Source of the DNA: Algoriphagus limi
GTDB taxonomy: Bacteria > Bacteroidota > Bacteroidia > Cytophagales > Cyclobacteriaceae
Length of the DNA stretch: 64,000 nt
NCBI RefSeq assembly: GCF_024919275.1
Contig: NZ_JANWGH010000001.1
Location: forward strand, 1,806,296 to 1,870,295
Direction of reading: 5' to 3'
Part shown: piece after piece, positions 42,207 to 52,700 of the stretch
How the letters are laid out: every line of letters starts with the position of its first letter
How positions within the stretch are numbered: position 1 is the stretch's first letter
The notes under the pieces: model-generated
Seen by the model: the letters and a program-made list of their open reading frames with translations, nothing else
What the model was told of the DNA's origin: nothing
The model's database searches: none
Position numbers and translations under genes: made by a program

Positions 42207-44738
42207 TCATCCATTTCCTCTTAAAATCTCCATCGGAGGTTGATTGATGATCTTATGCCCATTCAGCCAACCTAGAATTATGGTCAAGCCTGTAATTCCT
42301 ACATACAAAATTAAGGCCTCGGTCCAAGCCGGTCTGAAACTCATTTCAAAGACAAACAAACTCAAAAGCCAAGTTGCTATAAAGGATAAAAGAATTCCTG
42401 AAAGAGAGGCCAAACTTCCTAAGAAGAAGTATTCCAGGGTGTTGATTTTTTTCACAGTACCAGAAGATGCCCCCAAAGTACGAAGCAGAATACTCTCCCG
42501 CATTCGCTGATATTTACTGATGATCAGAGAACTGATCAATACCAGAATCCCGGTAGCAATACTAAAGAAGGCCATAAACTGAATCACAAATGAGATTTTG
42601 CTTAGGATATCTTCCAAGGTCTCCACGATCACACCCAAGTTGATAACTGAGATGTTGGGAAATTCCCGAACAACCTCGGATTGAATCTCAGCGGATTCCC
42701 TGTCATTTTTAGTACGGGTAATGATCACATGGAATTTGGGTGCCTGCTCCAAAACTCCATTCGGAAATAGCACAATAAAATTGGTGGAAACCTGATTAAA
42801 TTTCACATTTCGAAAGCTTCCGATGTAAGTTTTGATCGGTCTACCTTGGACATTGAATTCAATCTCATCCCCTATTTTCAGGTTATTTCCCTCTGCGAAA
42901 CTGGTAGATAAGCTCACAAAAATAGAATCACCTCTTGCTCCCACAGGGATAAGCTCTCCCTCCACTAGCGTTTCCGTTTCAATCAAGGTATCTCGATAGG
43001 TAACCCGATATTCTCGGTTATACATCCAGCGAGAATAGTCTTCCTCATCAGGCAATTCTTCATTTTCCCTTTTATCGATCCCATTGATCTCATTGAGTTG
43101 CATGGTCACAATAGGAACTTCCTGAATTATCCGAAGCCCTCTGCTAGTAACTTTTTCTTTCACAGCTTCCAGTTGGGGCGTTTGAATATCAAACATCAAC
43201 AAATTCGGTTGATCCTCCTTATCTGCAAATCGAGCTTCTTCCAGCAATTGATTTTGGAGGAAAAATAAGGTACTGATCATTGCTGTTCCCAAACCAATTG
43301 TAGCAATCAAAGAGATGGTTTGGTTATTTGGACGATAAAGATTTGCCAGTGCTTGCCGAATGGTGTAGCGTAAGGAAATGGGCAAAAACTTACGAACAGC
43401 CCACATAATCAATTGGCCCACTCCCCACAGAATACCAAAAGCAAAAATCACAAAGCCAGTAAAACCTATGGCCAATGGGAGAGAATTCAATAAGTAAAAG
43501 CTGAATCCCCAAATGAAAAGTATAACACCTACTACTACAGCCCATCGATATGGATCTCGGAGTATAGTCGAATCCGCAGTCTCAGGACGAAGGGTAGCCA
43601 TAGGCGAAACATTTCGAACTTTCAGTAATGGTAACAAGGCGAACAAAACTGAAACGAATAAGCCTGTAATAATCCCGAAAGCAATGGATATCCAAGAAAC
43701 CCCAACTGTCACTTCCACAGGAAGAAACTCATCAAAGACAGCAGGAAGGATGAATTGAAGCAGAGTTCCCAAAACAGAACCCATAATAGCTCCAAATAAG
43801 CCCATCACTAGAATCTCAAACAAATAAATCAGGAGTACATCCCTGGACGAAACTCCGAGACATCTTAGGACAGCTACAGATGCTAATTTTTCTTTTACAA
43901 AAACATTAACTGCTGAAGCTACTCCCACACAACCTAATAAAAGTGCAATGAATGCTACAAGACTTAAGAAATTGGAAAGATTCTCAAAGGATCTACCGGT
44001 TGATCTTTTCCGATCTTCCACGGTATCTGCGTCAATTCGTTCGATTTCCCATTCATCCTCAAATGGCTCAATCAATGCCTCCACATCCGAGCCTTCTGCA
44101 AATTGAAAATAGTGATTGTATTCTACCCTACTTCCATATTGGACTAGACCTGTTTCCTCCAAATAATCCATGGGAATATAAACCGCAGGGGCAACTGTTG
44201 CAGTGATTCCTGTTTGTCCAGGAACTCCTTGCAGTTCTCCGACGATTTCAAACTCCACATTTCCCACCTTGATATAATCCCCTACTTCTGCATTAAATTG
44301 GGCCATTAGGATTTTTTCAACCAAGGCTTTTTTTCCTCCTGACCGGAAATTCTGGTCCCCGGAAGCCGGAATGGTTTCCAAAAATCCATAAAAAGGAAAG
44401 TCTCCTTCTAATGCTCGCACTTGCGTCAAACGGCTCGCACCAGTTTCGGGAAATGCAACCATGGAAGCGAAATTCACTTCAGATGCCATTTGGGTTGCCA
44501 TTGAGTCAATCGGCTGTTCACCAATTGGCTTATTATTCTCCAATACCAAATCAGCCCCCAAAAGCTCCTTGGCCTGATTATCAATATCGGCAGTCAAATT
44601 ATCCCCGAAACTGCTAATCGCTACCAAAGCGGCAATCCCCACCACAATGGAACTCACAAAAAGCATCAGTCGAGAAATATTTTTCCGGAAATCCCGGAAA
44701 GCCATTTTCAAAATCCAAGCAAAATCAGGCATGGGCAT
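42207..44738 (-). CDS. ybbP: FtsX-like ABC permease, YbbP type
   Basis: An 843-residue inner membrane protein. An N-terminal helix (ISRLMLFVSSIVVGIAALVAISS) is followed by a MacB-like periplasmic domain. The first FtsX core has three helices (FLSLVAFIALLLGCVGVASA, ILVMGLFGAIMGSVLG, ISIAFGIITGLFVSVLFALL). A second helix pair, a second periplasmic domain (about 520-700) and a second FtsX core end near ILGWLNGHKI. Double FtsX with this length matches YbbP, which with YbbA forms an efflux-type or extraction ABC system of poorly known substrate. The ATG at 44738 (or 44732) overlaps the end of ybbA by 14 (or 8) bp; the upstream frame extension lies inside ybbA. Confidence 0.88.
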   Translation of the reverse strand: MPMPDFAWILKMAFRDFRKNISRLMLFVSSIVVGIAALVAISSFGDNLTADIDNQAKELLGADLVLENNKPIGEQPIDSMATQMASEVNFASMVAFPETGASRLTQVRALEGDFPFYGFLETIPASGDQNFRSGGKKALVEKILMAQFNAEVGDYIKVGNVEFEIVGELQGVPGQTGITATVAPAVYIPMDYLEETGLVQYGSRVEYNHYFQFAEGSDVEALIEPFEDEWEIERIDADTVEDRKRSTGRSFENLSNFLSLVAFIALLLGCVGVASAVNVFVKEKLASVAVLRCLGVSSRDVLLIYLFEILVMGLFGAIMGSVLGTLLQFILPAVFDEFLPVEVTVGVSWISIAFGIITGLFVSVLFALLPLLKVRNVSPMATLRPETADSTILRDPYRWAVVVGVILFIWGFSFYLLNSLPLAIGFTGFVIFAFGILWGVGQLIMWAVRKFLPISLRYTIRQALANLYRPNNQTISLIATIGLGTAMISTLFFLQNQLLEEARFADKEDQPNLLMFDIQTPQLEAVKEKVTSRGLRIIQEVPIVTMQLNEINGIDKRENEELPDEEDYSRWMYNREYRVTYRDTLIETETLVEGELIPVGARGDSIFVSLSTSFAEGNNLKIGDEIEFNVQGRPIKTYIGSFRNVKFNQVSTNFIVLFPNGVLEQAPKFHVIITRTKNDRESAEIQSEVVREFPNISVINLGVIVETLEDILSKISFVIQFMAFFSIATGILVLISSLIISKYQRMRESILLRTLGASSGTVKKINTLEYFFLGSLASLSGILLSFIATWLLSLFVFEMSFRPAWTEALILYVGITGLTIILGWLNGHKIINQPPMEILRGNG

Positions 44739-45402
44739 CCTCCTGTATTTTTCCTCCTTTGATATGAATGATTCGTTGAGTTTTGGTCGCGAGCTCCGGA
44801 TCATGAGTCACCAAAACGAGTGTAGTTCCTTTCTCTTTATTCAAGTCAAAAATCAACTTTTCGATCATATCGCCTGTTTCGGTATCCAAATTCCCCGTTG
44901 GTTCATCGGCAAAAAGAATTTTAGGTTCATTAGCAAAAGCTCTTGCGATGGAAACCCGCTGTTGTTCTCCTCCTGACAATTGAGTAGGATAATGAGTAGC
45001 CCGGTCGCCTAGACCGACTTTTTTCAATAGTTCTAATGCTTTTTCCCGGGCATCTTTACGTTTTTTCAGTTCCAAAGGAACCATCACATTTTCCAATGCG
45101 GTCAATGTCGGCAGCAATTGAAAATTCTGAAAAATGAAACCTACATCTTGATTTCTAACAGCAGCCCGTTCATCTTCAGAAAGCCTTTCTAATGCTTTTC
45201 CATTCAATTGGACTGATCCTTTTGAAGCAGAATCTAAACCGGCACAAAGCCCCAATAAGGTGGTCTTTCCACTACCAGAAGGTCCAACAATGGCTAAGGT
45301 TTCCCCTGCTTCTATATCGAAATTCACCTGATCCAAAACAGTCAGGCTTCTATTTCCACTTTTATAAGTTTTACCCAGATCTTTTACTGAAAGAATATGC
45401 AT
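44725..45402 (-). CDS. ybbA: ABC transporter ATPase, YbbA/LolD type
   Basis: A 225-residue ATPase. Walker A is GPSGSGKTTLLG, Q-loop FIFQNFQLLPTLTALENV, signature LSGGEQQRVSIARA, Walker B ILFADEPTGNLD and switch LVTHDPELA. The ADEPTGNLD sequence is typical of the MacB/LolD/FtsE/YbbA group that drives mechanotransmission through FtsX-like permeases. It is coupled by overlap to the permease gene. It is divergent from the tesA-like gene 218 bp away, the same gene set found next to each other in E. coli (tesA, ybbA, ybbP). Confidence 0.9.
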   Translation of the reverse strand: MHILSVKDLGKTYKSGNRSLTVLDQVNFDIEAGETLAIVGPSGSGKTTLLGLCAGLDSASKGSVQLNGKALERLSEDERAAVRNQDVGFIFQNFQLLPTLTALENVMVPLELKKRKDAREKALELLKKVGLGDRATHYPTQLSGGEQQRVSIARAFANEPKILFADEPTGNLDTETGDMIEKLIFDLNKEKGTTLVLVTHDPELATKTQRIIHIKGGKIQEDAHA

Positions 45403-45620: not shown

Positions 45621-46310
45621 ATGAAAACCTTCAAATCGATCTCTATACTTTCTTTAATTCTTATTTCCTTTTTGACATTTAGCTGCGGTGATAACCAAGC
45701 TAAGAAAGAAGAAGTCAAGGATACAGAACAAACCTCATCTTCGGTTGAAGCACCCAAGCAGACCATTCTATTTTTCGGGAACAGTTTGACAGCCGGATAT
45801 GGAATTGATAAAGAAGATGCCTTTGCCGGACTAGTTCAGCAAAGAATCGACAGCTTGGGATTGGATTACCGGGTGATCAACGGAGGATTGAGTGGAGAAA
45901 CTACAGCAGGAGGATTGAGTAGATTGGATTGGTTTTTAGAAGATGAACCGGCCATTTTTGTCCTCGAACTTGGAGGGAATGACGGACTTCGCGGCATCCT
46001 ACTCAGCGAGACAAAAAGTAACTTGGAAAAGATCATCGATAAGGTTCGTGCAAAATATCCGAATACCCATATCATCTTAGCAGGAATGCAAATTCCACCC
46101 AATATGGGACAGGAATACACTGACGAATTTAAGGAAATCTACCCTCAAGTGGCTAAGGAGAAAAATGTAACACTGATTCCCTTCTTATTGGAGGGAGTAG
46201 CAGGGGACCCAGCACTCAACCTACCAGACGGAATCCACCCAACAGAAGAAGGACATCAAATCGTTTTTGAGACCGTTTGGCCTTTTATTGAGGAGTTAGT
46301 GAAGTTATAA
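45621..46310 (+). CDS. tesA: SGNH arylesterase/lysophospholipase, TesA-like lipoprotein
   Basis: A 229-residue lipoprotein (LISFLTFSC, Cys at 22) with the SGNH hydrolase blocks: block I FFGNSLTAGYG with S55, block III ELGGNDGLRG, and block V DGIHPTEEGHQ with the Asp-His pair. It resembles E. coli TesA (thioesterase I/protease I/lysophospholipase L1), here membrane-anchored instead of free. It is divergent from ybbA-ybbP as in E. coli. The last 33 codons are repeated, in diverged form, about 1.3 kb downstream (47505-47606), with a 42-bp stretch (46250-46291) identical in both. Confidence 0.92.
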   Translation: MKTFKSISILSLILISFLTFSCGDNQAKKEEVKDTEQTSSSVEAPKQTILFFGNSLTAGYGIDKEDAFAGLVQQRIDSLGLDYRVINGGLSGETTAGGLSRLDWFLEDEPAIFVLELGGNDGLRGILLSETKSNLEKIIDKVRAKYPNTHIILAGMQIPPNMGQEYTDEFKEIYPQVAKEKNVTLIPFLLEGVAGDPALNLPDGIHPTEEGHQIVFETVWPFIEELVKL

Positions 46311-46420
46311 CTTTTAAACATTCTTGATTACCTATTCAAATAATAAAGTTCATTCTTATCTTATTTAAGAAGAAAAGATGAATTCAAATAATTCAATTTT
46401 TTGAATTAAATCCCAAAATC

Positions 46421-47278
46421 TTAACTTCTTTTAAAAAGTATTGAAAACAAAATAACAAACTCTCTCCTAAGAGTATAAAGCATCGATCTAACTAGCAATG
46501 TAAGATCCTTATGTATATATCGAAACAAATACCAATTGCTTTTATACAATAGTCTATTGTTTTTTAACCTATGCTGACTTTGATACACTCCATTTGAATG
46601 AATTCGGTAGTATGAGGTATAATCAGGAATAGCTATTATATCACCTTTATTTTTCTGAAATGCAAAAAGAGATCTATCTAAAACTACTGGTTTAGAAATA
46701 ATAGGGTTTTGAAGAAAATCTCTCATAAAATTACGCATCATCCATCCTGAAATATGCCCCAAATAGTTATTTCTCTTAAGCTCGTTTTTTGAAAAAAGGT
46801 GAAAACTTTCTGGTAGTTGAAGTTGTCCCTTTTTACCATTTATCAACGTGTTAGAAATACAAAGAGAAACATTCTGGTATTTTTCTAATATCTCTACTTG
46901 CTTTTGAAGTTTATACTTATCAATCCAAAAATCATCTCCATCACAGATACATATAAATTTTCCTCTTGCACTTCCATAAAGACCTAGATGATTAAGTCTT
47001 CCTGATTTTCTTCCAAACATTGATATTTTCTCTTTCCCATTCCTTAAAAATAATCGAATTTTATCTTGATTATCTTTTGCATAACTTATGCAAAGTTCTC
47101 GAGTACCATCATTACTGTCATCCTCACCGATAAGAATTTCATATGGAAATATCGTTTCTTGATTTAGGACACTATTTAAACATTCCTCTATATATTTAAC
47201 ATGTTGATAAGCAGGAATTAATACTGAAACGATTGGTTGAATTAAGTTTACAGGCTTGCCTACACCTAAGAACTCCAT
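46421..47278 (-). CDS. glycosyltransferase family 2
   Basis: A 285-residue GT-A fold transferase. The start is PIVSVLIPAYQHVKYIEECLNSVLNQ (in two segments), then nucleotide-sugar binding EILIGEDDSNDGTRE and the metal-binding DxD in ICICDGDDFWIDKYKLQKQ. The C-terminal part has basic and hydrophobic stretches (LLVRSMLYTLRREFVILF) that may contact the membrane. Donor and acceptor are unknown. The gene is markedly more A/T-rich than its neighbours and is isolated between intact tesA and a broken tesA 3' copy, without other polysaccharide genes. This suggests a recently acquired cassette. Confidence 0.9.
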   Translation of the reverse strand: MEFLGVGKPVNLIQPIVSVLIPAYQHVKYIEECLNSVLNQETIFPYEILIGEDDSNDGTRELCISYAKDNQDKIRLFLRNGKEKISMFGRKSGRLNHLGLYGSARGKFICICDGDDFWIDKYKLQKQVEILEKYQNVSLCISNTLINGKKGQLQLPESFHLFSKNELKRNNYLGHISGWMMRNFMRDFLQNPIISKPVVLDRSLFAFQKNKGDIIAIPDYTSYYRIHSNGVYQSQHRLKNNRLLYKSNWYLFRYIHKDLTLLVRSMLYTLRREFVILFSILFKRS

Positions 47279-47303
47279 TTACAATAATTTTATAAGGTTA
47301 GCC

Positions 47304-47486
47304 TCATTTAAAGGGGATTGTGTTTTCTTCGAGATAATCCTTTTGAAGTGGTAAAAACACATGATTAAATACTATATCAAATAAACAATCATTTTTATTA
47401 TAAAAAAAAGTCAAACCAAATAAATTGTTAATCCTGATCAAAGGCACCTTATTATTTAAAATTAAGCAATCCCCATTAATATACAT
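47304..47486 (-). CDS. possible small protein or remnant in the A/T-rich cassette
   Basis: A 60-codon frame starting at an ATG (47486) and ending 25 bp before the glycosyltransferase start, same strand. It contains RINNLFGLTFFYNKNDCLFDIVF and FLPLQKDYLEENTIPFK. No family is recognised; it might be a fragment of another carbohydrate-related gene carried by the cassette or a chance frame in A/T-rich DNA. It starts almost exactly at the left limit of the tesA remnant. Confidence 0.3.
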   Translation of the reverse strand: MYINGDCLILNNKVPLIRINNLFGLTFFYNKNDCLFDIVFNHVFLPLQKDYLEENTIPFK

Positions 47487-47504
47487 TAACCCTAAGTATT
47501 TGAA

Positions 47505-47606
47505 AACCCCGCTCTCAATTTACAGGACAGAATTCATCCTACAGAAGGAGGACATCAAATCGTTTTTGAGACCGTTTGGCCTTTTATTGAAGAGTTAATC
47601 AAGTAA
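47505..47606 (+). pseudogene. truncated 3' remnant of a second tesA copy
   Basis: Thirty-three codons plus a stop line up with the end of intact tesA (46206-46304) without gaps: 84 of 99 bases match. The core 47549-47590 is identical for 42 bp. In the last 26 codons four differences are synonymous and three change the residue (Gly to Arg, Glu to Gly, Val to Ile). Upstream of 47505 the frame meets stops and homology fades. It retains block V (DRIHPTEGGHQ) but no start or catalytic serine. The pattern is that of a diverged allele or paralogue cut by the cassette. Confidence 0.85.
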
Positions 47607-47610
47607 AAAT

Positions 47611-47678
47611 GAAAGAACCCTCTTCTAGTTTTTAATTATTCCTTTTGAAAAAGGAGGTCTTTCGTTATCTATTTTTTT
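47611..47678 (+). terminator. imperfect hairpin with T-run after tesA remnant
   Basis: GAAAGAACCCTCTT and AAGGAGGTCTTTC can pair with small bulges, and a run of seven T follows soon after. This looks like the original tesA terminator left behind next to the remnant, before the GMC gene. Confidence 0.4.
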
Positions 47679-47712
47679 ACCCTATCTTTTCAACTTAATT
47701 AAAATTTTAAAA

Positions 47713-49455
47713 ATGAGTTTTCAAATCAAAGAAAACGCAGACTCTTATGATGTTATCATTGTTGGGTCTGGAGCGGGAGGCGGAATGGCTTCCAAAGTCC
47801 TTTCGGAAGCTGGGCTTTCCGTTGCCGTAGTAGAAGCTGGAGGTGATTTTGATCCAGCCAAAGACGAAGACCGAACCCAACTGAGACCACCATGGGAATC
47901 ACCTCGAAGAGGTGCAGGAACACGAATCCGTCCTTTTGGTGACTTTGACGCCGCAATTGGAGGATGGGATATAGACGGGGAACCTTATACCCGAAAAAAC
48001 GGAACTCAATTCGACTGGTTCCGCTCCAGAATGGTCGGTGGCCGAACCAATCACTGGGGAAGAATTTCCCTTCGTTTTGGACCAAATGATTTTAAAAGAG
48101 GTAGCATAGACGGCCTAGGTGATGACTGGCCAATCGGATATGATGACCTTAAACCTTACTATGACAGAGTCGATAAACTAATTGGAGTTTTTGGAACCAA
48201 GGAGGGAATCTATAACGAACCTGATGGATTTTTCCTTCCTCCACCAAAGCCGAGACTTCACGAACTTTTCATCAAAAAAGGAGCTGATAGTGCGGGAATT
48301 CCTATGATTCCTTCCCGTCTTTCTATGCTTACCCGTCCTATCAATAATGAGCGAGGAGTTTGCTTTTTCTGTAATCAATGTAACCGTGCTTGTCAGATTT
48401 ATGCTGATTTTTCAGCTGGTACCTGTCTAGTACATCCAGCCATGAAAAAAGGAAAAGTTGACCTCTACACCTACTCCATGGTTCGTAAAGTAACTACCGA
48501 TGATCATGGAAATGCCACGGGGGTTTCTTTCGTCTCCAAAGTGGATATGAAAGAATACAAGCTTCGCTCAAGAGTAGTTGTGCTTGGAGCCTCCGCCTGT
48601 GAATCAGCCCGTATCATGATGAACTCAAAATCAAAAACTTTCCCGAACGGGATAGGCGCTGATTCTGGAGTGCTGGGAAGATACTTACACGATTCTACTG
48701 GAGCTGACAGAATGGGCATCATGCCTGACCTGATCGATAGAGAGCGATACAATGAGGATGGCGTTGGTGGTATGCACATGTACACACCTTGGTGGCTGGA
48801 CAATAAGAAACTTGACTTTGCCCGTGGCTATCACATCGAATACTGGGGCGGAATGGGACAGCCCGCTTATGGCACAGGCATGAGTATGGATAGCATGCGT
48901 CAGTACATCAAAGATGAATTCGGAAATCCAAGTCCAAACGGAGGCTATGGTGAAGGTTTGAAAAAAGATATTCGCCGAATCTATGGATCTACTTTGGGAA
49001 TGTCAGGTCGAGGAGAAAGTATTCCACAATACGATAATTACTGCGAAATTGATCCGAATGTAGTCGATAAGTATGGTATTCCTGTCCTTCGATTCAACTA
49101 TAATTGGACTGACCAGGAAATCAAACAGGCCAAGCATATGCAGGATACCTTTGAAGAAATTCTGACGAATGCAGGAGCTATCTTACTAGGAAAGAAACCA
49201 GGACCAGAAACCAAGTACGGGTTAGCCGCTCCTGGACGAATTATTCACGAAGTAGGTACTACCCGAATGGGAAATGACCGCAGTTCCTCAGTAGTTAATT
49301 CCAATTGCCAAGTCCACGACTGCAAAAATCTTTTTGTGGTAGATGCCGGACCATTCGTCTCTCAAGCAGATAAAAACCCAACTTGGACCATTTTGGCTCT
49401 TTCTTGGAGAACTTCAGATTACATTGTTGAGCAATTGAAACAAAAAAACATCTAA
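47713..49455 (+). CDS. GMC oxidoreductase, FAD/iron-sulfur dehydrogenase large subunit
   Basis: A 580-residue flavoprotein. The FAD-binding fold starts at [18 protein letters not shown] (about 13-30), with [10 protein letters not shown] and [11 protein letters not shown] cysteine cluster [11 protein letters not shown] places Cys at 217, 220, 223 and 227, as in the three-subunit gluconate, sorbitol and glucose dehydrogenases that carry a [3Fe-4S] centre. The C-terminal GMC part has HEVGTTRMG (active-site His region) and [13 protein letters not shown]. It oxidises a sugar or sugar acid and passes electrons on. The following gene (3 bp) is its small subunit 3. No cytochrome subunit is adjacent. 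It has no signal peptide, so export probably relies on subunit 3. Confidence 0.92.
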
Positions 49456-50325: not shown

Positions 50326-51537
50326 ATGTCAGAATTGAAAACCTCCATTTTTAAGCGAATCTCCTTTTTCCTCCTGTTAGCAGCTTTATTTGCATGTGGA
50401 GAAAATTCAAAGATCGAAGAAGTATCCCAAACCGAAAATTCATTTGAACTGGTCCTGACAGATTCACTAGATTATCAATTACTCGGCGATCCGATTTTTG
50501 CAGATGTCAGTTCAGACGGGAGCCAAGTTTTAATTTACGATTATGCATCCAGTGAAATCATTTCACTAGATCAGGATGGAAATCTCCTCGGTAAATTCTC
50601 CAAAACGGAAGACACCCCCGATGCTTATGGATTTATGATGGAACTTCCGGGTTTTTTGGGGAATGATCGAGTAGTAGTTAGTGGTCTGCGTGGGATTTTT
50701 ATTTATGATTTAGAAGGAAACCTAATTAGCAAAATCGATCATCCAGAGGACTTGGGAGGCGCGATTTTTATGCCTATTACTGGAAAATCTATCGAGACCG
50801 TTTCTAATCAAGGAGAGGAGTTTTTGATTGCAAAATCAGTCAGATCCAGAAATACCTTTCCTGGAGAGCAGGCTTTTTATGATAGATATCGAGCCATAGA
50901 GTGGATTGATGTAAAAACAGGGGAATCCAAAGACATTATTCCCTTCGAGGAGGGTAGTATCTTCAAAAACGGAAAAGGATACATTGAAAGCGACTACACG
51001 CCAGCCTATGAATGGATTTCCGATAAGCTTTATACAAGTCTGGGTGGTGAACCCAAACTTCGGGTCTATTCGCTTACTGATGATGAACCATTGCTGGACA
51101 CTACTATCAATCTGAACATCCCTGATTTTAGAGAATTGCCGATTCGAGAAAGAAATGAATTTGCCGAAGGTAGCTTGACGGTGGACGGAAGTACACCTGC
51201 TATTCGAAATATTCATCAAGTAGGCAATTTCATTTTAGTTCATTATTATGCAGGAATGGATCCAGATAAAACCAAAGAAGCAGAAGAGCTTTGGATGTCT
51301 GGGAATGAGGAAGAGGCCGGTCAACTTTTTGAGCAGCTCGAAAAAGAGGTAAGAAAAGGCTTCGTGATTTTTGATCTAAAAACCCTAAAACAATTAGGAG
51401 ATATCACTTTGCCTTCAGGTGTGGAAACCAGCGGTTTTCTTGCAGCAGACGAATTTCTTTGGTTCCAAAAAGCCCCTTCTGAGGAAATAGAAGAAGATTT
51501 TGTTAGGATCTATAAATATAAATTAAACCAACCATGA
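50326..51537 (+). CDS. beta-propeller-like lipoprotein, first of a tandem pair
   Basis: A 403-residue lipoprotein (LLAALFAC, Cys at 24). The mature part has repeated beta blade-like segments with D-G turns (FADVSSDGSQVLIYDYASSEII, LDQDGNLLGKFSK, IFIYDLEGNLISKI, GFVIFDLKTLKQLGDITL). It looks like a six-bladed propeller of the kind common in Bacteroidota (6-bladed or DUF4221-like groups). The family assignment is uncertain and no function is known. The next gene starts 4 bp before its stop and encodes a diverged paralogue with the same layout, so the pair arose by tandem duplication and is co-translated. Confidence 0.75.
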   Translation: MSELKTSIFKRISFFLLLAALFACGENSKIEEVSQTENSFELVLTDSLDYQLLGDPIFADVSSDGSQVLIYDYASSEIISLDQDGNLLGKFSKTEDTPDAYGFMMELPGFLGNDRVVVSGLRGIFIYDLEGNLISKIDHPEDLGGAIFMPITGKSIETVSNQGEEFLIAKSVRSRNTFPGEQAFYDRYRAIEWIDVKTGESKDIIPFEEGSIFKNGKGYIESDYTPAYEWISDKLYTSLGGEPKLRVYSLTDDEPLLDTTINLNIPDFRELPIRERNEFAEGSLTVDGSTPAIRNIHQVGNFILVHYYAGMDPDKTKEAEELWMSGNEEEAGQLFEQLEKEVRKGFVIFDLKTLKQLGDITLPSGVETSGFLAADEFLWFQKAPSEEIEEDFVRIYKYKLNQP

Positions 51538-52700
51538 GAAACTCTTTATTCTTTTTTATGGCAGGAATAGTATTTTTTCTTGCCTGTAGTGAAAAAGCAT
51601 CTGAAGTCCCGAACAAACCCCTATCGGATCAAAACCTGAAATTCGAAATATACGATTCTCTGATGGTGGATTACCTTGGCAATCTTACGCTGATGGATAT
51701 CAGCCCAAATGGTGAAAATTACCTCCTTATTGACCAAAACACAGATACCATTTTCGTCACAGATTTCAAGGGAAAAATCATACACAAATACTATCGCAGT
51801 GGCGATGATCCAGAATCAATCCAAGGAAACCGTACAGGATTGGGTAAATTCCTAGACAATGAATCCATTCTTATTCCAGGCAGTCAAGGAATCGTCACCT
51901 ATGAATTATCGGGCAATCTCAAGAAGGTATATAAACCTGAGTTCACTGGAATGTCCAGTTTTGTAGTCCCTTTCAATCAAGTTCACTGGGTATCGAACCA
52001 AAAAGTCTATGTATACCTTCCGGGAAGACACAGTGATTTAGCTCAACAAGGTTTAGCATTTCAAAAGGAATCTACTCAGCTGGAGGTTTTAGATTTGAAT
52101 ACTGAAAAATTCGAACCAGCGATTCCTTTTCCAAAAGAGTCCAAGTACAGTAGTGAAACGCAGGAATTTGGGAGTCTAGACTTTTATCCAACTTTTAATG
52201 TTTCTGGAGATTCCTTATATATCTTATTCCGAAACGAACCCAAACTACTCACGTATCACTTATCAAATTTAGAGACGCCAGTAAGTGCTAAAAACATCCC
52301 ATACGTTGAATTTATAGAACGAAAAACTAGTGAAGAACCAGCTAGTGGAGGATTTAATATTCGTGATTTTTTCTTGGGGGTAAACCTCTCGCTTTTCCCC
52401 ACCGAAGACGGAAAATTTTTAATCCAATACCTAAGAGGGTTGACGGAAGAGGAGGCTGATGAAGTAATAAATGCTGAAGGCACTGACTTTAATAAAATGT
52501 TTGAAGAAGCTGAAAAATTAAATGATGGTGGATTTATTCTCTTTGATGGTACACAAGTGAGTCCTATTATCGAAAAACCTGAAATCTTAGGAACGCTCAG
52601 TAAGTATGTGTCCAATGATGAAATCTGGTTTTCCCTGAATTTTGAAGAAGCTGAAAATGACTATTCGGTTATTTACAAAACCCGTCTCGTCACTCAGTAA
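51534..52700 (+). CDS. beta-propeller-like lipoprotein, second of a tandem pair
   Basis: A 388-residue lipoprotein (GIVFFLAC, Cys at 18). It parallels the preceding protein along its length: LTLMDISPNGENYLLIDQNTDTI matches FADVSSDGSQVLIYDYASSEI, GSQGIVTYELSGNL matches GLRGIFIYDLEGNL, and the ends DYSVIYKTRL and DFVRIYKYKL correspond. Both carry an acidic helix insert (FNKMFEEAEKLNDGGFILFD here) before the last blade. Function is unknown. It overlaps its paralogue by 4 bp, and no clear terminator lies between it and the Asp-box gene 93 bp downstream. Confidence 0.75.
   Translation: MRNSLFFFMAGIVFFLACSEKASEVPNKPLSDQNLKFEIYDSLMVDYLGNLTLMDISPNGENYLLIDQNTDTIFVTDFKGKIIHKYYRSGDDPESIQGNRTGLGKFLDNESILIPGSQGIVTYELSGNLKKVYKPEFTGMSSFVVPFNQVHWVSNQKVYVYLPGRHSDLAQQGLAFQKESTQLEVLDLNTEKFEPAIPFPKESKYSSETQEFGSLDFYPTFNVSGDSLYILFRNEPKLLTYHLSNLETPVSAKNIPYVEFIERKTSEEPASGGFNIRDFFLGVNLSLFPTEDGKFLIQYLRGLTEEEADEVINAEGTDFNKMFEEAEKLNDGGFILFDGTQVSPIIEKPEILGTLSKYVSNDEIWFSLNFEEAENDYSVIYKTRLVTQ

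Follow-up and report, generated by a model that had tools for sequence, protein, structure and literature searches.

The interval between tesA, an esterase gene, and a neighbouring GMC oxidoreductase gene reads as a cassette hot spot in this genus. In the 64,000-nt stretch analysed here (the window), a sugar-related cassette probably arrived by homologous recombination through tesA and left the native tesA end stranded downstream of the cargo. Related species have nothing or different genes at this position, which suggests that it is a site where genes are swapped by recombination within the end of tesA. The features of the window locus are collected in Table 1.

Table 1. Features of the tesA–GMC locus in the window, in window coordinates
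Feature	Position	Strand	Evidence or remark
ABC transporter ATP-binding gene, conserved left neighbour	44725..45402	-	PF00005, 130 bits; beside tesA in most fetched loci
Intact tesA-like GDSL esterase, 229 aa; native body and cassette-linked tail, as read here	45621..46310	+	PF13472, 107 bits
42-bp core, copy 1, likely crossover tract	46250..46291	+	identical to 47549-47590; permutation p 0.0017 / 0.009
EELVKL tail of the intact tesA, interpreted as incoming	46292..46310	+	no good match in panel
GT2 glycosyltransferase (GT), 285 aa, only recognised cargo gene	46421..47278	-	PF00535, 73.9 bits
A/T-rich DNA between GT start and remnant	47279..47504	.	one 60-aa ORF, 47304-47486, minus strand
tesA remnant ahead of the core, interpreted as a foreign allele	47505..47548	+	12/44 bases differ from intact copy
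42-bp core, copy 2	47549..47590	+	identical to copy 1
End of the native tesA (EELIK, with its stop at 47606), plus intergenic DNA to GMC	47591..47712	+	best match is the G035 empty site (L073)
GMC oxidoreductase, conserved right neighbour	47713..49455	+	PF05199 and PF00732; after tesA in most fetched loci

To place the window among its relatives, 72 genomes of the genus were searched, and the neighbourhood of tesA was fetched from each of the 68 with an orthologous copy. Excluded before counting were G034, G044 and G060, which had no tesA match, and G047, which had weak matches only; the tesA of G041, split across two contigs (L054, L055), was counted once. The order ABC transporter, tesA, GMC oxidoreductase is kept in most of the 68 genomes. 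GMC is absent at the site in L040, L041, L052, L060, L067 and L068, and in some loci the upstream genes fall outside the fetched stretch or beyond the contig end. The site is empty in 47 genomes, with 61–278 bp after tesA, and carries varied cargo in 20; in the remaining one, G036, the contig ends 73 bp past tesA. A GT-type sugar cassette, or part of one, occupies the site in 13 genomes, different cargo with a longer duplicate of the tesA 3′ end at its edge in two (G069, G038), and a PIN gene (G007, G002, G053) or PIN relic (G003, G008) in five. These are the empty sites and the different cargo at one place that the initial annotation, in proposing a comparison of this interval among relatives, had predicted for an insertion hot spot.

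The fullest sugar cassette comprises a PylC-like ATP-grasp protein, a NeuD-like acyltransferase, the GT2 glycosyltransferase and a BKACE protein, with a sugar-transfer ATP-grasp protein and a PLP enzyme on the opposite strand. Among the 13 carriers the window holds the GT alone, and G040 has only an ATP-grasp gene before its contig ends. At E ≤ 1e-30 the genus contains 23 GT matches, 12 at tesA and 11 elsewhere. Away from tesA, relatives of NeuD, GT and BKACE lie together at L107, L110, L112, L113 and L114, so the three genes appear to form a stable unit there.

Between the two copies of the tesA 3′ end the window holds A/T-rich DNA with a single glycosyltransferase gene on the opposite strand, exactly as first annotated. 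The GT, at 73.9 bits, exceeds the Pfam cut-off for Glycos_transf_2 (23.3 bits), and no NCBIfam model matched it at its own cut-off. A check of GC content and codon use had been suggested at the same time; run per gene, it ranks the GT lowest of the 48 window genes both in GC (0.301; mean 0.416, sd 0.027) and in GC3 (0.210; mean 0.378, sd 0.044), a composition that marks the gene as foreign. Identity to the GTs of the 11 other carriers at the tesA site is 50–57%. A donor was not found among the 72 genomes of the genus, where the best match reached 58% identity, and at E ≤ 1e-70 the best match outside the genus in 245 genomes of the family was only 46% identical. A scan of a collection of genome contigs returned three distant loci at 28–37% identity.

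Relics of other cassette genes in the window interval were sought and none was credible, with no match at E ≤ 1e-3 with composition statistics on; one candidate, a NeuD match on the opposite strand (E 3e-4), was lost under these settings and rejected. Integrases were likewise missing from the scanned insert proteins, in line with the first impression from the sequence; the scan took in a part of all insert ORFs, and in the window it covered the GT, with the 60-aa ORF outside it. A defence-protein library gave zero matches to ten cassette proteins.

The intact frame and conserved family match, taken by themselves, favour a functional GT in the window. Elsewhere, in the recent pairs G012–G011 and G025–G051, dN/dS values of 0.07–0.26 for GT, BKACE and NeuD indicate that these genes are probably functional. 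Judged by the enzymes that accompany the GT at other loci, it may attach a sugar, further decorated with acyl groups or amino acids, to a glycan of the cell surface, which the cargo would thereby alter.

The repeat that bounds the window insert, 46207–46310 against 47506–47609 at 85% identity, is the sole plus-strand repeat detected in the window at E ≤ 1e-8. Over the last 33 tesA codons (46206–46304 and 47505–47603), 84 of 99 bases match, and 9 of the 15 mismatches fall at third codon positions; the 84/99 repeat with an identical 42-bp core between diverged flanks had been reported in the initial annotation and holds. Such a clean run of 42 nt amid 15 mismatches has a permutation p of 0.0017, or 0.009 when sites are weighted by their variability in the 67 other genomes, and is unlikely to have arisen by chance, although as evidence for a crossover these values are moderate. 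Nor can the run be put down to constraint, because the core is almost as variable as the 44 bases that precede it: the 67 other genomes diverge from the intact copy by a mean of 0.255 in the core versus 0.276 in those bases. The longest clean run between any of these 67 tesA genes and the intact window copy is 26.

Both copies appear to be mosaics. The body of the intact tesA (45621–46205) is 87.8% identical to that of the sister genome G017, lies between flanks at 86.6% and 88.9%, and by this measure is native. Its tail with the next ~100 bases reaches a best panel score of 48, versus 134 for the tail of the remnant. The remnant tail and the 106 bp that follow match the empty locus of G035, which identifies this tail as native to an empty site. 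When the window flanks are joined at the core they yield a 228-residue tesA, and an alignment of the joined sequence with the G035 locus spans 793 nt (78.4% identity, two gap letters). The stretch behind the remnant had been taken for an imperfect terminator marking the original tesA end; its fold is no better than that of shuffled sequences (z −0.44), a weak point of that annotation, but it does align with native intergenic DNA of an empty relative.

The start of the remnant differs from G017 at 15 of 44 bases, where the intact copy differs at 5. At 9 of the 12 sites that distinguish it from the intact copy it carries a base present in at least 5 of the 67 other tesA genes, and at 3 a base present in none (p 0.0006 when sites and bases are both drawn at random, 0.033 when the sites are kept). 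The start therefore probably derives from a foreign tesA that was functional, with slight decay afterwards. A native body, a foreign tail, a foreign remnant start and a native remnant end together fit one crossover inside the core. The dS between remnant and intact copy, 0.69, is close to the 0.72 between the window and G017 tesA genes. G017 carries a different, fuller cassette and no remnant; this speaks against our reading, as it leaves some doubt about which state the two genomes started from.

The clearest case of cassette transfer comes from another pair, G012 and G011, in which the switch to cassette DNA can be placed inside the last tesA codons. The two genomes are 96.4% identical over 2471 bp beginning in the last 25 bases of tesA, and 63–82% identical in most 100-base windows of tesA and its upstream region, lower between genes. 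There G012 is mostly 91–99% like G023 and G024 (few windows at 70–86%), both of which are empty and have a tesA tail different from that of G012. The cassette genes of G012 and G011 have dS values of 0.06–0.24, and those of ABC and tesA are saturated. Behind the G011 cassette, near the contig end, lies a 70-aa ORF (L084:143-355), presumably a transposase fragment.

Similar discordance is seen more widely. Across 12 carriers (G040 left out; the G011 contig lacks GMC), GT identity shows no correlation with GMC identity (rho −0.07, p 0.60), and tesA identity does follow it (rho 0.70). GT identity is weakly tied to ABC identity (rho 0.34, p 0.006), which counts against the explanation we favour. 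The window and G017 share 98% of residues in ABC and 99% in GMC versus 52% in the GT.

We propose the following course of events. DNA from another species, in which a glycan-modification cassette adjoined the 3′ end of tesA, would have recombined with the resident tesA inside the shared 42-bp tract. The resident gene would have retained its body and gained the cassette-linked tail, and its old native tail, with the DNA behind it, would have ended up on the far side of the cassette, with a fragment of the foreign tesA in front of it. For a single crossover in the core to have made the window arrangement, the donor would have to be circular or to carry a pre-existing repeat. The gene itself would still work. 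The DNA may have been delivered by natural transformation; comEC and dprA family genes are present in the genome, and they occur in 10 and 11 of 14 control genomes, respectively, which makes them too widespread to be proof of competence. That a resident and an incoming tesA allele recombined within the core had been among the readings first offered for this locus, and it gains support from the empty sites, the other cargo and the tails that switch together with the cassette.

A less likely alternative is homology-facilitated illegitimate recombination, with homology on the left only and a non-homologous joint at codon 196 on the right, so that the remnant would be resident throughout and the core a product of later conversion or chance. 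The remnant does start abruptly, and duplicates of the tesA end behind cargo differ in length among the three genomes that have them: 99 bp in the window, 386 bp at 99% identity in G038 and 518 bp at 84% identity in G069, the latter two following other proteins. Displacement of this kind has also been proposed for T6SS effector loci (PMC5361080). Against it, the remnant start is not resident-like, being three times as different from G017 as the intact copy is, and most of its differences are variants found in tesA alleles of other species. The foreign start is short, however, and its 44 bp had no donor in the panel, which leaves some weight with an illegitimate joint followed by gene conversion. 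If three sites before the core have decayed, it is also slightly odd that none of its 42 bases has, and this may mean later gene conversion.

The other two duplicates add limited detail on where a crossover might lie. In G069 the copies show the pattern of the window, two mismatch-free tracts (44 and 48 nt) within otherwise diverged sequence and 70 of 90 mismatches at third positions, and a quadrant test did not separate them into host and donor; in G038 the near-identity of the copies makes a crossover point unreadable. The inserts of G038 and G069 (L053:5349-9165 and L052:10234-12264) have in common proteins without a Pfam or NCBIfam match, which we guess may be of an immunity type, and one such pair has a dS of 0.146. 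Five G038 insert proteins matched no NCBIfam family, and four of them, compared also with Pfam, had no match there.

Under a more ambitious reading, which we consider doubtful, the tesA-end repeats would turn the cassette into a mobile unit that depends on RecA and needs no integrase. A crossover between the cores would release a circle of 1,299 bp and leave behind the 228-residue tesA with its native end, and any tesA that has a similar core could then take up the circle again. Were this so, a gene end would serve as a homologous landing site that is repaired on both entry and exit.

A tandem duplication of tesA, with decay of the second copy and independent insertion of the GT between the two, was also suggested at the outset and now appears very improbable. 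Both window 3′ ends are of the EEL type, as in G017, G035 and G036, which would suit such an origin, but the fetched stretches of the 68 genomes hold no second full tesA. Moreover, duplicates accompany 3 of 18 filled intervals and none of the 47 empty ones, a 16-nt chance match in L034 aside; the search required both interval ends and so covered neither the filled sites of G011 (L084) and G040 (L057) nor G036 (L074).

Elements that carry an integrase can restore the 3′ end of a gene and leave a short direct repeat at the far side, and here too tesA regains its end next to the insert, which is bordered by a short identical repeat. A small integrative element with its attachment site in the tesA 3′ end, its integrase lost or never present, as the initial annotation had also considered, is nonetheless hardly tenable, given scanned insert proteins without an integrase, a repeat of such variable length, and a repeat flank of diverged coding sequence that resembles a tesA allele in the arm before the core.

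The proposed homologous recombination through tesA brings the locus close to the minimal mobile element (MME), described in Neisseria as two conserved genes between which whole-gene cassettes are exchanged by homologous recombination without mobility genes (PMC3082526). Here tesA and GMC form the conserved pair, adjacent or flanking in most of the 68 genomes, with sugar cassettes, PIN genes, other proteins or nothing between them, as compared across species and not strains. Recombination in the flank is seen in the G012–G011 switch inside tesA, and for the window it would be of the same kind. MMEs also spread by natural transformation, for which the comEC and dprA family genes are weak evidence here. 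The tesA site differs in being seen between species, in another phylum-level group, and in that three genomes keep a duplicate of the left gene's 3′ end behind the cargo. On this comparison the locus is MME-like, a new place and not a new kind, and the retained direct repeat is its unusual feature. For T6SS effector and Rhs loci it is likewise proposed that incoming DNA is anchored in a shared part of a gene and that the old end persists downstream as a remnant (PMC5361080); at tesA, however, the gene in common encodes an esterase and stays almost complete, and what is inserted is a separate set of genes with no toxin tip. Our search of the open-licence literature found no description of the tesA–GMC locus.

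The site offers a countable case of accessory genes that lack mobility genes and yet spread from species to species: a single position in 68 genomes is found empty, filled or decayed, and a switch point could be mapped within a coding gene. Footprints like the stranded tesA end could be looked for at the ends of other genes as a way to discover more such hot spots. The site's cargo of sugar-modifying enzymes, a PIN gene and other proteins is as expected where surface or conflict traits are swapped.

Elsewhere in the window, to the right of the GMC region, two neighbouring genes (50326–52700) are 26% identical to each other; the first has no Pfam match, and relatives differ in the number of such genes they carry.
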